From assembly GCF_002953935.1 (NCBI RefSeq), contig NZ_CP026514.1:3596001-3660000 (forward strand): a stretch of 64,000 nucleotides of DNA, in the 5' to 3' direction. The notes beneath the pieces are model-generated. The model saw only the letters and a program-made list of their open reading frames with translations, had not been told where the DNA came from and did not search any database. Below, one piece after another: positions 32,701 to 38,278 of this stretch (position 1 is the stretch's first letter; each line of letters starts with the position of its first letter). The translations under genes and the position numbers were made by a program. The stretch is from Arthrobacter sp. PGP41. GTDB taxonomy: Bacteria > Actinomycetota > Actinomycetes > Actinomycetales > Micrococcaceae.

Positions 32701-34521
32701 ATGGCCAGGCAAACTCCATTTTTTCGATCGGTCAGTCGTCTCTACCCCCATGTCCGGCCAATCATTCCCCGGCTCGTGCTGGGACTCCTCTGCGCGCTGC
32801 TTGCCAGTGTTGTAGCCTTGGCCATCCCGCAGGCCCTGAGGGTCCTGGTCAACGAATCACTGCAGCCGGGCGGCGACACCGGGGCGATCTGGACGTCGGC
32901 CGGCATCATCCTGATCCTGGGCATCGCAGAAGCTGGCCTGGTTGCGCTCCGCCGGCAGTTCGTCATCAACCCGGCCACCACCGTGGAATCCCGGATGCGC
33001 GTCTCCCTTTATGACCATCTCCAGGAGCTGACGGTCTCCTTCCATGACCGCTGGGGCTCCGGCCAGCTCCTGTCCCGCGCCATGACGGACCTGAATTTCC
33101 TGCGCCGCTGGATGGCGTTCGGGGCCATCATGCTGGTGGTCACCACCCTCACAGTGATCATCGGCATTGCCGTCATGTTCGCCATGAGCTGGCAGCTTGC
33201 CCTGATCTTCCTGGCCGCGGCCGTGCCCATCATGGCGTACAGCTTCCGGTTCCGGACCCGCTTCAGCAAAGTGGCACGCCGGAGCCAGGACCAGGCAGGA
33301 GACCTGGCCACCACGGTGGAGGAATCCGTCCATGGCATCCGGGTGCTCAAAGCCTTTGGCCGCAGCCGGGAAGCACTCGAAACCTTCGAAGGACAAGCCG
33401 AAGAGCTCCGCCAGACGGAAATCGCCAAGGCGCGCCACCAGGCCATGTTCACCATGGTGGTCACGCTCCTGCCGGAACTCGCCCTGGGCGCAGGCCTGGT
33501 GGTGGGAATCATGCTGTGCTCCAGCGGGCAGCTGAGCATCGGCGCGTTGGTAGCCTTCTTCGCCACCGCGGCAGTCATTGCCTCACCTGTTGAATTTTCC
33601 GGCATGCTGCTGGCCATGGCACTCACCGCCAAGACCGCCGTCGACCGCCACTACGAAGTGATGGATACTCCCAACTCCATTACCAGCCCCGCGGAACCGC
33701 GCAGGCTCCTCCGGCCCGCCGGCGCACTCCGTTTCAACAACGTCACTTTTGCCTTCGAGGACGCCCCGGACAAGCCCATCTTGAAGGACATCAACCTCGA
33801 ACTCCGGCCTGGTGAGACCATGGCCCTGGTGGGGATCACGGGCAGCGGCAAGAGCGCCTTGATTCAGCTGGTCCCCCGCCTGTACGACGTCACCGGCGGC
33901 TCCATCACCATCGACGGCGTGGACCTGCGGGATTTCGACGTGGAGGAACTCCGCCGCCTCGTGGGCGTCGCCTTCGAGGACACCACCCTGTTCTCCAATT
34001 CCGTCCGCGACAACGTGCTCCTCGGGGCACCGGAACACACCGAGGCCGCCCTGGACGAGGCACTGGACGTGGCCCAGGCGCACTTCGCGTATTCCCTCCC
34101 GGAAGGCGTGGACACGCTGATCGGAGAGGAGGGCCTCAGCCTGTCCGGCGGGCAGCGCCAACGGATTGCGCTGGCACGGGCCATCGCCGCCCGCCCGCGG
34201 GTGCTGGTGCTGGATGACCCGTTGTCCGCTTTGGACGTCCACACGGAGGAGCTCGTGGAGACCCGGCTCCGGACAGTCCTGAAGGACACCACCACGCTGA
34301 TCGTCGCGCACCGGCCGTCCACTGTGGCCCTCGCGGACCGGGTGGCCCTGCTGGAACAAGGACGGATCACCGCCGTCGGAACGCATACCGAGCTGCTGGC
34401 GGGCAACGACCATTACCGTTACGTCATCGCCAGCCTGGACCAGGAACCCCGGGACCTGGACTCGGAGCTGTCAGACCTCGACGAAGAGTCCGATGTCCAG
34501 GAAGCGGAGGCCAACCGATGA
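32701..34521 (+). CDS. ABC exporter half-transporter 1 (degenerate ATPase site)
   Basis: Fused membrane/ATPase protein of 606 residues. Six helices come first (about 25-310), then the NBD. Walker A is [10 protein letters not shown] (Lys384), the signature is canonical LSGGQ (481-485) and Walker B is LVLDDP (Asp505), where the catalytic Glu is replaced by Asp506. The H-loop is IVAHRPS. It overlaps the next gene by 4 bases (ATGA) and must pair with it. The exported substrate (drug, lipid or peptide) is not evident. Confidence 0.94.
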
Positions 34522-36344
34522 GTGCCACGCCATTCGGCACCGCCAACGAAGACAACGCCCACCTCAGCAAGAGCGACAGCAGGGCGGTACGACGGCGGTC
34601 GCTGGCGCTGCTGCGGTCACTGATCCGGCCGGTGCGAATGCGCTTCTGGCTGACCATCGCCATGGTGGTCCTGTCCCAGGCGGCACGCGTGGCCGGCCCG
34701 GCGCTGATCGCCTTCGGCATCGACCGCGCACTGCTCGCCCTGCAGGCAGGGGACAACACGCCCCTGGTGTTCACCGGCGTCGCCTACCTGCTCGCTGCCA
34801 CTGCGACGGCGGGGCTCACGGCTTTGTATGTCACGTCCACCGCCAGGCTGAGCCAGGCAATGCTGCTGGACCTGCGCCTCCGGGTTTTCCGCCACACCCA
34901 GCGGCTGAGCCTGGAGTTCCACGAAAAGTACACCTCCGGCCGGATCATCGCCCGGCAGACCTCGGACCTGGAGGCCCTTCGGGAGCTCCTGGACTCCGGT
35001 GTCAGCTCGCTGGCCTCAGGGATGCTGTTCATGGTCTTCACTGCAGCTACCGTGTTCGCACTGGACTGGCGGAGCGGGCTGCTGGTGTTGGCCGCCGGCG
35101 TTCCCATGTTCCTGCTGGCCCGCTGGTACCAGAAACACTCCCAGATCGTCTTCCGGGAATCGCGTGTGGTCTCCGCCCGGCTGATTGTGCATTTCGTGGA
35201 GACAATGACAGGCATCCGTGCAGTCAAGGCCTTCCGGAAGGAGCAGGAAAACTCCCGGCGCTACGGCCTGCTCGCAGAGGACTACCGGCGGGTCACCGTG
35301 CGCTCCATCAACCTCAACGGCATCTTCCAGCCGGGGCTGGTGCTGATCGGCAACGTGTGCGTGGCAGTGGTCCTGCTCTTCGGGGGTTTCCGCGTCCTCG
35401 GCGGGGATCTGGAAGTGGGGGTTCTCCTTGCGCTCATCCTCTCCACCAAACGGTTCTTCCAGCCTGTGGACCAGATGGCCATGTTCTACAACTCGTTCCA
35501 GAGTGCCCAGGCCGCGCTCGAAAAGGTCTCGGGGCTCCTCGAGGAGGTGCCGACTGTCCGGCCGCCAAAGAATCCCGTCGCCCTGAAGGACGCCAGGGGG
35601 GCAATCGACTTCAAAGACGTCGAATTCCGGTACGGAGACGGTCCAATCATCGTCCCCACCCTGAACCTGCACATCCCCGCGGGGCAAACCGTGGCCCTGG
35701 TCGGCCAGACGGGAGCCGGGAAATCCACCTTGGCCAAGTTGATAGCCCGCTTCTACGACGTCACATCGGGTTCGATCACACTCGACGGCATCGACCTCCG
35801 GAACCTCGGCACAACAGACCTGCGCCGCAACATCGTCATGGTCACCCAGGAGGCGTTCCTGTTCAGCGGCTCGGTGGCCGACAACATCGCCTTGGGACGC
35901 CCGGAAGCCGCCCGCTCCGAAATCGAGGAAGCAGCCAAAGCGGTGGGCGCCCACGACTTCATCATGGAACTTCCCGAGGGCTATGACACGGACGTCAACA
36001 AACGCGGCGGGCGGGTGTCGTCCGGACAGCGGCAGCTCATCAGCTTTGCCAGGGCATTCCTGGCCCGCCCGGCCGTACTGGTCCTGGACGAGGCGACCTC
36101 CTCGCTGGACATCCCCTCCGAACGGCTGGTGCAGGAGGGCCTGGCCCGCCTCCTCGCGGGCACGGAGGCGGGCCGCAGAACGGCCCTGATCATCGCCCAC
36201 CGCCTGTCCACGGTGGAAACCGCGGACAGGGTGCTGGTTGTGCAGGACGGCCGCATCGTGGAGGACGGCAGTCCTGCCCAGCTCATTGGCGGCGGCGGGC
36301 GCTTTGCCGACCTGCATGGGGCATGGAAGGACTCGCTGGTCTGA
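34518..36344 (+). CDS. ABC exporter half-transporter 2 (catalytic Walker B)
   Basis: Partner of the previous gene, 608 residues, with the same layout. Walker A is GQTGAGKST (Lys402), Walker B is LVLDEAT with catalytic Glu525, and the H-loop is IIAHRLS. Its signature is VSSGQ (500-504) instead of LSGGQ. The pair is therefore asymmetric in the pattern known for TM287/288-type heterodimers. It is followed by tRNA-Pro on the same strand. Confidence 0.94.
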
Positions 36345-36447: not shown

Positions 36448-36524
<77 letters not shown>

Positions 36525-36604: not shown

Positions 36605-36634
36605 AAAGCCCCGGAGCGGATGCTCCGGGGCTTT
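36605..36634. terminator. bidirectional terminator between tRNA and the peptide gene
   Basis: Perfect 13-bp stem, AAAGCCCCGGAGC (36605-36617) and its complement (36622-36634), with a GGAT loop. T-rich flanks occur in both directions; on the reverse strand it closes the small peptide gene 28 bases after its stop. Confidence 0.85.
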
Positions 36635-36662: not shown

Positions 36663-36884
36663 TTACACGGGGTCGGGCCAGTTGCCCGTGCTGGTGGTGT
36701 AGGTGGTGTCGGCCTTCTTCTCCTTGGTCTCCTTGGAGGAGACAGGATCCGGCCAGTTTCCGGTTCGGGCTACAGCCACTCGTTCCGTGTCGGCAATGGA
36801 ACCTGCAGACAAGACAGCCGGAGCCGCTGCAGAAAACGCCAAGGCCCCAGCTAGGGCGGCTGCCGCTGCAATCTTCTTCAACAT
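36663..36884 (-). CDS. secreted peptide precursor with duplicated TGNWPDPV octapeptide (putative pheromone)
   Basis: Protein of 73 residues. A Sec-type signal peptide (MLKKIAAAAALAGALAFSAAAPA) ends near residues 20-31. The octapeptide TGNWPDPV then appears twice, at residues 41-48 and at the extreme C-terminus (66-73), separated by a Lys/Glu/Thr-rich spacer. Six of the eight codon pairs differ synonymously, so the peptide sequence appears to be held by selection. The first copy follows Ala-Arg, a plausible protease site. A ribosome site (GAGGA) lies 6 bases before the ATG. It is divergent from an XRE/TPR-like regulator and closed by a terminator. I recognise no described family; a signalling peptide is inferred. 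Confidence 0.8.
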   Translation of the reverse strand: MLKKIAAAAALAGALAFSAAAPAVLSAGSIADTERVAVARTGNWPDPVSSKETKEKKADTTYTTSTGNWPDPV

Positions 36885-37012
36885 ATTAGTTCCTCAATAC
36901 GAGTCGGATTCGTTACAAAGCCAGCACTGTCCTTGTTGACATACATTGTAAAATGTTTTCCACAGTGGCTGTCAAGCGCCAAGAGGAAACCTGTGGAGAA
37001 AGGAGGAGTCCC
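36885..37012. promoter_or_regulatory. divergent promoter region of the peptide and its regulator
   Basis: The AT-richest stretch of the neighbourhood. TTGACA is present on both strands, facing each other: 36936-36941 (+) and 36970-36975 (-). For the peptide, TACAAT on the reverse strand (36950-36945) lies 19 bases beyond its -35, or TTTACA at 17 bases. For the regulator TCCACA lies 17 bases beyond. The inverted repeat ACATT-N4-AATGT (36943-36956) sits between the two -35 boxes and is a candidate operator. The two polymerase sites overlap, so only one can be used at a time. Confidence 0.55.
37001..37006 (+). promoter_or_regulatory. ribosome binding site fixing the regulator start
   Basis: AGGAGG, 6 bases before GTG at 37013. 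It is far stronger than anything before the in-frame ATG at 36953, which also lies inside the promoter region. Confidence 0.8.
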
Positions 37013-38278
37013 GTGGGCAACGGATTCGGGGAGAAGCTCCGGGCGGAGAGGCTCGAACGGGGGCTGACACAGGCGGAACTGGGCAAGGACCTGTATTCAC
37101 CCAGCTACATTTCCCTGCTGGAAACAGGGCGCAGGGAGCCAACCGCGGAGGTCATTGAAGAACTGGCGCGCAGGCTGGAGCTCGCACCAAAGGCCTTGGA
37201 AGCATGGAGCCAGCCCATTTCGGTGAGCGATGCCGAGTATGTCCTGGCAGGACTGTACGCCCGCCAGGCATGGGACCTGAGGGACTACCCGCTCGCGGCG
37301 AGCCATGCGGCTGCTGCTGCTCAGATAGCACTGGACGGACGGAACACCAGCGCCTGGTGGAACATGAGCTACATGCAGGCCGAGTGCCTGCTGAAACATG
37401 GCGATTTGCTGGAGTGCAGGGAGCTTGTGGAAAGGCTGCTCGAGCACCCGATGGCCAGGGAATCCGTGGGGCTGGGCGCGCGTGCCCGGCAGATGCTCGC
37501 GGTTGTGTGCCAGCGCCAGGGCCAGCTGACGGCTGCCGTGGAGCATGCAACGGAGGCGGTGGCCTTCGCCAAGCAGTTGCCCAAGGGCTCAGTGATCACC
37601 ATCGGCGCACTCCGGGCCCTGATCGGCGCGTTGGCCGAAAGCGGCCGTCTTAATGAGGCGTGGAAGTACTGCCAGGAATTGCTGGCCCAGGTGGATGAGC
37701 ACGCGATGTCCCAGCTGGCCGGCGAGGTGGCCTGGGTCATCGGCAACGTGGCCTTTATGCGCCACGATTATGTGGAGGGCGTCAAACACCACGAACGCGC
37801 GGCCAAACTGCTGTCACCGGCAAACGACATTGAGCTGTGGGCCCGTTTTAATAAAGCGTCCGCCGCGGTACGGCTGTCATCCGGAATTGTGGAGCCTGAA
37901 ACGCTGTCATCCATTGAGCGGGCCGAGCTTGCCTTTTCAATCGTCAGCGGCACCAAGAGCGATGAGCTGGAAGTTGCTTTCATCCGCGCCCGCTGGCTGT
38001 ACCTGACCGGGGACATTGTTGCCGCCGTCGAGAAGCTCAGGGAAATCCATGCCGAGCGGGACAGCCTGGCGAAGCACACCGCCGGCGAAGTGTCGCTGCT
38101 GCTGGGGAAGTCGCTCAAGGCTGCGGGCGAATCAGAGGAAGCCCTGGTGCACCTCGAAGAAGCGCAGAAAGCCTTCAGTGCCGCTGGAGCTGCTGACCGC
38201 GTCCAGCAGGCACTGGACGCGGTCCTGGAAATAAAGCTGGCCCAGCGGCGCGCTGCAGCCGCTTCCAAAGCCAGCTAG
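37013..38278 (+). CDS. XRE-HTH regulator with helical TPR-like sensor body (RRNPP-like)
   Basis: Protein of 421 residues starting at GTG 37013. The N-terminal XRE helix-turn-helix is FGEKLRAERLERGLTQAELG then SPSYISLLETGRREPTAEVI, the same layout as PlcR/Rgg-type regulators. The remaining 350 residues are almost entirely helical with TPR-like spacing of Ala and aromatic residues: YARQAWDLRDYPLAASHA, AWWNMSYMQAECLLKHGD, ARARQMLAVVCQRQGQ. That is the fold which binds short peptides in RRNPP receptors. It is divergent from the duplicated-octapeptide gene, the natural candidate for its ligand. It converges with purC, 36 bases away. Confidence 0.85.
   Translation: MGNGFGEKLRAERLERGLTQAELGKDLYSPSYISLLETGRREPTAEVIEELARRLELAPKALEAWSQPISVSDAEYVLAGLYARQAWDLRDYPLAASHAAAAAQIALDGRNTSAWWNMSYMQAECLLKHGDLLECRELVERLLEHPMARESVGLGARARQMLAVVCQRQGQLTAAVEHATEAVAFAKQLPKGSVITIGALRALIGALAESGRLNEAWKYCQELLAQVDEHAMSQLAGEVAWVIGNVAFMRHDYVEGVKHHERAAKLLSPANDIELWARFNKASAAVRLSSGIVEPETLSSIERAELAFSIVSGTKSDELEVAFIRARWLYLTGDIVAAVEKLREIHAERDSLAKHTAGEVSLLLGKSLKAAGESEEALVHLEEAQKAFSAAGAADRVQQALDAVLEIKLAQRRAAAASKAS

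Follow-up and report, generated by a model that had tools for sequence, protein, structure and literature searches.

An XRE-TPR regulator and a divergently encoded repeat-octapeptide precursor in Arthrobacter as a probable RRNPP-type signalling pair of Actinomycetota

Introduction

Peptide signalling of the RRNPP type is described mainly in Firmicutes. PapR, the partner of PlcR, is a small secreted precursor with a C-terminal mature peptide, and plcR and papR lie in tandem order. NprR-NprX and AimR-AimP come from Firmicutes and their phages, whereas Rgg-SHP and ComR-ComS combine an XRE-type receptor with a tiny peptide gene; in streptococci, short leaderless pheromones are exported by an ABC transporter. 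Divergent gene pairs of a repressor and an effector are also common.

Phr precursors are described as carrying one to four copies of the mature peptide, two identical ones in Phr105, and duplicated Rap-Phr pheromones have been studied (PMC11343458). RRNPPA genes are reported from several Firmicutes genera, of which all but one belong to Bacilli (PMC9765709). The paper on RRNPP_detector describes a scan of Firmicutes and viruses, and signals of Actinomycetota as typically enzyme-made small molecules (PMC10075063); a review of actinobacterial quorum sensing also exists (PMC4748050). A search of open-licence literature, a scope outside which preprints and most subscription papers fall, returned no description of the precursor-regulator pair presented here, and its sole match for NWPDP concerns position sensors.

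The window analysed is a stretch of 64,000 nucleotides from Arthrobacter sp. PGP41 (contig NZ_CP026514.1, positions 3,596,001 to 3,660,000), whose genome is a single contig of 4.27 Mb; the named relatives of its proteins are chiefly from Pseudarthrobacter and Arthrobacter, and on the strength of such names the family sampled below is regarded as Micrococcaceae.

Results

The divergent gene pair and its intergenic element

The features of the locus, in window coordinates, are as follows.

36605..36634 (-), GC-rich, terminator-like hairpin of 13 bp, 3' of the precursor gene (sequence reading)
36663..36884 (-), precursor gene, 73 aa (ORF; 281 homologues at E<=1)
36666..36689 (-), TGNWPDPV copy 2, residues 66-73, C-terminal, immediately 5' of the stop
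36741..36764 (-), TGNWPDPV copy 1, residues 41-48
36804..36884 (-), Sec-type signal peptide, about residues 1-27, MLKKIAAAAALAGALAFSAAAPAVLSA (sequence reading; relatives alike)
36936..36975 (no strand), conserved 40-bp element TTGACA-N28-TGTCAA with a ATTGTAAAAT core
37013..38278 (+), XRE-TPR regulator, proposed peptide receptor, 421 aa from GTG
37013..37207 (+), XRE helix-turn-helix domain, about residues 1-65 (Pfam; model confidence low)
37220..38272 (+), TPR superhelix, residues 70-420 (AlphaFold model)
37391..37411 (+), residues 127-133, putative specificity patch (tracks position 1 of the peptide)
37502..37516 (+), residues 164-168, putative specificity patch (tracks position 1 of the peptide)

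The regulator is read from the GTG at 37013, a start that is preceded by a ribosome site of AGGAGG type and is also used in relatives; the longest ORF, delimited mechanically, is of 441 aa from the ATG at 36953. Counted from the GTG, the divergent arrangement across a 128-bp gap given in a preliminary description of this DNA is correct, and the ORF likewise bears out a precursor of 73 residues with a signal peptide and TGNWPDPV at residues 41-48 and 66-73. The DNA of the two copies differs at 6 of 8 codons, every change being synonymous. The hairpin 3' of the precursor gene is absent from the list produced by a terminator scan. Beyond the precursor lie a tRNA-Pro (36448-36524) and an ABC transporter gene (34518-36344; Pfam), and beyond the regulator a SAICAR synthetase gene (Pfam). 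Two consecutive ABC transporter-like genes past the tRNA-Pro occupy 32701-36344 and could be an exporter (Pfam on the second). Seven SBP_bac_5 oligopeptide-binding proteins encoded in the genome are candidate importers.

The intergenic element, written as TTGAC[AG]-N28-TGTCAA, occurs at every one of the 111 octapeptide loci when the whole locus is searched. On the minus strand, TTGACA-N19-TACAAT can be read toward the precursor gene; a promoter scan gave no sigma-70 match in the intergenic region. The element is likely an operator, a pair of facing (divergent) promoters, or both. Outside the octapeptide loci it is present in L058 and L060-L063, and it was not found in L059, L067, L068, L073 or L092. 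A regulon search of the strain's own genome placed the exact element and its two cores (<=3 and <=2 mismatches) at one place only; therefore no further target is proposed, and no wider regulon was found.

Predicted fold of the regulator

The preliminary description had seen an XRE helix-turn-helix followed by a helical, TPR-like body. Pfam agrees, with HTH_31, HTH_3 and TPR_12 above cut-off, and an AlphaFold model computed without peptide (mean pLDDT 83.8, pTM 0.78) yields the TPR superhelix over residues 70-420. Confidence is high along most of this body (pLDDT 87-98 in blocks covering residues 91-420, 80-81 for residues 71-90) and drops to 35-57 over residues 1-70. In a Foldseek search, Rap with bound peptide (4gyo) reached a TM score of 0.62 by target length at rank 15, below other TPR proteins, and of the 50 best entries shown by VIA-align, 17 bear Rap, NprR or AimR in their titles. 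APPBP2, MalT, subunits of APC/C and LGN matched as well as Rap or better in these structural comparisons. The modelled fold supports a binder of peptide or protein, and is not specific to signalling. By sequence, an alignment profile matches PlcR (2qfc) over profile positions 3-207 (E 1.4e-8), but in the same search PlcR is outscored by designed PPR repeats and by the immunity repressor of a phage; under the broader profile A3, the best match to PlcR is limited to the HTH (E 5e-9).

Conservation of the pair within the family

The regulator occurs in 204 of 206 genomes of the genus (E<=1e-100), and it or a TPR relative in 144 of 295 sampled genomes of the family, spanning 17 of 32 genera (E<=1e-20). 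Each of the first 30 loci fetched has a divergent precursor with one to four copies of xGNWPDPx (or GIWPDP), the last of which terminates at the stop. Under a fixed test, a small divergent ORF with G-x-W-P lies upstream of 80 of 114 fetched regulators (111 of the window's family and L089-L091 from other families), loci that are mutually related and are not independent samples; the same test was positive in 15 of 4560 dinucleotide shuffles and on 2 of 228 downstream strands, these two resembling genuine precursors, with signal peptide and repeats, beside tandem receptors. Among the 34 misses, inspection by eye shows a W-P peptide in six (L038, L063, L069, L075, L076, L092), and L089-L091 have CC peptides. 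For 25 of the 114 no candidate peptide was found in the upstream DNA, 12 of these belonging to genus group g45. The neighbouring peptide gene anticipated for relatives is present in 80 by the fixed test and was not seen in these 25. The g45 regulators lacking a visible upstream peptide gene (L064, L074, L081, L106-L114) are possible orphan receptors; some g45 loci retain parts of the intergenic element.

The octapeptides themselves were compared in the best 120 of the 281 homologous precursors (E<=1), 119 of which have at least two octamers. Within this set the octapeptide is C-terminal in all 119 multi-copy precursors, and all copies within a precursor are identical in 111 of them; after shuffling of partners, first and last copy coincided in 17.5 of 119 on average and in 29 at most. 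Comparison of first and last copies in 106 multi-copy loci gave, from a total of 848 codons, 560 identical, 281 synonymous and 7 nonsynonymous, and therefore the copies have diverged in DNA with their protein sequence held. Copies alike inside a precursor and variable between precursors are what would be expected if both must fit one receptor. Only one full copy was counted in L019, L038, L148, L157 and L166; the precursor of L038 stops early and has seemingly lost its second copy. Two records are of doubtful label: the precursor P0032, assigned to Streptococcus pneumoniae on a 352-base contig, is probably contamination, and L119, an Arthrobacter-type locus on a MAG contig titled Acidobacteria bacterium, is probably misbinned.

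In other genera the peptide takes further forms around a G-x-W-P core: AIGNWPDPM (two to five copies), AVGIWPNS (two), PGIWPD (three), and peptides of the types VGNWPDAVHPLGF (four), VGDWPHA (eight) and TPAVGNWPDRFYSV (five to eight). The expectation that the octapeptide is kept across species stands in that it is conserved and C-terminal in relatives; it has to be modified in that TGNWPDPV is a single allele within a G-x-W-P family. In the regulator's family, group g53 has leaderless precursors of about 20 aa ending in VG[DN]WPD; precursors of this kind were noted at L071, L095, L097-L100 and L102, the remaining sequence being divergent.

The g53 precursors, having no signal peptide, favour an alternative in which the peptide acts in the producing cell, where precursor or product would bind the regulator without leaving and serve as a feedback or timing device instead of signalling between cells. 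We regard this as improbable, given the signal-like N-termini of the window's precursor and of most of its listed relatives, and the precedent of leaderless streptococcal pheromones that are exported nonetheless.

Co-variation of peptide and receptor

The comparison used the 111 distinct receptors among 130 receptor-octapeptide pairs. The last octapeptide copy starts with I in 62 of them, with V in 39 and with T in 10, and this first residue tracks a small set of receptor residues. I is found with M127, L132 and H167 in 62 of 62, and V with I127, W132 and Q167 in 37 of 39, the two exceptions, L056 and L057 of a more remote genus, having L127, Y132 and H167. T accompanies H129, Q167 and R168 in 9 of 10; the remaining locus, L130, encodes a mixed precursor in which three copies start with I and one with T. 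In loci fetched later, with SGNWPNPM (three) or TGNWPNPM (one), the T-type set H129/D131/L132/Q167/R168 was present in 4 of 4, an extra match from one of these genomes being left uncounted. Position 8 of the peptide shows weaker associations, with receptor residues 194-202.

On the tree, the I-type L167, L159 and L139 lie among V-type receptors and L048 shows the reverse, each with the matching residues. In tests of independent I/V pairs on three trees, the columns of L132 and L127 rank first of 231; they are concordant with the peptide in 4 of 4 supported pairs on two trees (one built without the columns chosen after the association test, one from all columns) and in 5 of 5 on a tree of residues 206-421, and the columns of E318, H259 and Q104 reached roughly half that score on the all-columns tree. 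Parsimony counts 11, 5 and 12 changes of position 1 on the three trees. There are at most five supported independent pairs, and therefore a sign test alone cannot fall below 0.05. Whole-locus exchange between strains might contribute to the co-variation.

In the model, the patches 127-133 and 164-168 take in the C-termini of helices 112-129 and 152-168 and the residues directly following; TPR geometry would make these helix ends spatial neighbours. The pairing of W132 with the smaller V, and of L132 with I, suggests steric complementarity. The co-variation proposed as a check in the preliminary description is, in short, present, with position 1 tracking residues 127, 132 and 167 on neighbouring TPR helices over few independent switches.

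That scarcity of switches, and the tendency of adjacent genes to move together, would leave room for an explanation by phylogeny and linkage, the pairing being a frozen neighbourhood of genes in no functional contact. We hold it to be very unlikely: the pairing is kept across genera and divergent peptide forms, and the best-tracking columns cluster in residues 127-167; among columns 1-119, situated closer to the peptide gene, none of those listed does better than Q104, with about 2 of 4. There is equally little to recommend the idea that the small protein is an effector or structural protein which is secreted and displays its repeat as a surface motif (antimicrobial or wall-binding), the XRE protein being no more than its local repressor in a divergent arrangement of the common kind, with a conserved element that is indeed unique to the locus within the genome, since a mere repressor does not predict that position 1 tracks residues inside the TPR body and the unit is one of eight residues placed at the stop in all 119 multi-copy precursors among the best 120 of 281.

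Relatives beyond the family

With a broad profile (E<=1e-30, the family's own genomes included), XRE-TPR relatives were found in 35 of 296 genomes sampled across the phylum, 27 of 198 across the order and 57 of 197 across the class. For 38 of 62 regulators from outside the family (identical regulators counted once, close relatives each counted), a divergent, signal-bearing ORF of 20-60 aa has an end with WP (10), CC (23) or both (5), a criterion chosen after the first examples; the controls gave 3 of 3720 shuffles and 4 of 180 control windows. Nine further loci were excluded, the N-terminus of the receptor being outside the locus or too near its edge. The remaining 24 of 62 have no WP/CC match, among them the large-genome g57 loci L226, L243, L246 and L248; by eye, CC occurs elsewhere in L090, L091 and L263 and on the same strand in L264 and L292, and another signal-bearing small ORF is present in L228, L235 and L247.

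To the -CC group belong Nonomuraea gerenzanensis and a locus for which the nearest named proteins come from Jiangella; on a Streptomyces plasmid, an annotated hypothetical protein ending in IPLCC lies downstream of the receptor. Across the proposed class, W-P endings belong to the window's family and to deep-branching classes, -CC endings to Jiangellaceae, Nonomuraea and perhaps Streptomyces, and some peptides have both (DWPVMCC, APWPHCC). Phage records gave no match to the regulator, and plasmid records gave eight Streptomyces matches, confined to the HTH (14-17% of the query). A Jiangella-type receptor matched 30 plasmid records, all below 60% identity; in five loci with such receptors, a candidate peptide was present in L307 and L308 and none was seen in L304-L306.

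Inside the regulator's own family, TPR relatives without an HTH (L075-L080, L082-L084, L220; about 40-48% identity), sometimes in tandem, mostly have divergent W-P precursors as well, which end in IGWWPN, GNWPH or GTGIWPY or contain AGWWPN twice. Pfam detected no HTH in L077 and L082, the two of them that were run. A small DUF7793 protein, weakly SpoIIAA-like, follows the HTH-less receptor in L082 (1226-1504, minus strand; Pfam), and L078 and L084 have a similar small protein by resemblance; it could be an output partner of such receptors.

The pair in the window is probably one clade of a phylum-wide class. We consider it likely that Actinomycetota possess an RRNPP-like pheromone class of their own, extending across the phylum, in which divergent XRE-TPR receptors are matched with W-P, -CC or W-P/-CC peptides, with an HTH-less side branch, and of which TGNWPDPV is one allele.

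Discussion

The locus is very probably a peptide-pheromone system of the RRNPP type, as first suggested for it. This reading is based on gene pairing, conservation, selection on the repeats at the protein level, co-variation, the predicted TPR fold and the intergenic element. Octapeptide conservation, position-1 co-variation and the predicted superhelix speak for it, and the 25 of 114 loci without a peptide against it. For the steps themselves, namely export, processing, re-import, binding, direction of regulation and regulon, we infer the following course. The signal peptide would export the precursor; proteases would free the octapeptide TGNWPDPV, or a core GNWPDPV, from two places in it; an oligopeptide ABC importer would take the peptide back in; and the peptide would settle in the concave groove of the neighbouring XRE regulator's TPR body; the regulator in its peptide-bound state would alter its action on the divergent promoter between both genes, and perhaps on further targets.

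If this is true, the pair offers a signalling system open to direct test, in a phylum to which many antibiotic producers and soil bacteria belong, and its natural peptide alleles are ready-made specificity variants for studies of receptor-ligand recognition. Cell-cell signalling of actinobacteria has been described chiefly in terms of small molecules.

Among the closest described systems is PlcR-PapR of the Bacillus cereus group, with which the locus shares a receptor of XRE HTH and TPR, an adjacent small precursor with a signal peptide and a peptide, here the putative mature form, at the C-terminus. It differs in phylum, in the length of the receptor (421 aa for the window's regulator, with a longer TPR body, against 293 aa for PlcR), in the repeated octapeptide with its W-P core, and in having divergent rather than tandem genes. 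Rap-Phr shares the TPR superhelix, here predicted, and the repetition of the peptide within precursors, and the HTH-less relatives in the window's family resemble Rap in domain make-up; the window's receptor, however, carries an HTH, and the peptide sequence is unrelated. NprR-NprX and AimR-AimP likewise consist of TPR receptors and small peptides and are among the 50 best structural matches shown, but they belong to Firmicutes and their phages, and the relation seen is one of fold only. Rgg-SHP and ComR-ComS have in common an XRE-type receptor with a tiny peptide gene, the leaderless g53 peptides resemble short pheromones, and there are weak profile matches, limited to the N-terminal 92 positions; the peptide family of the window is a different one.
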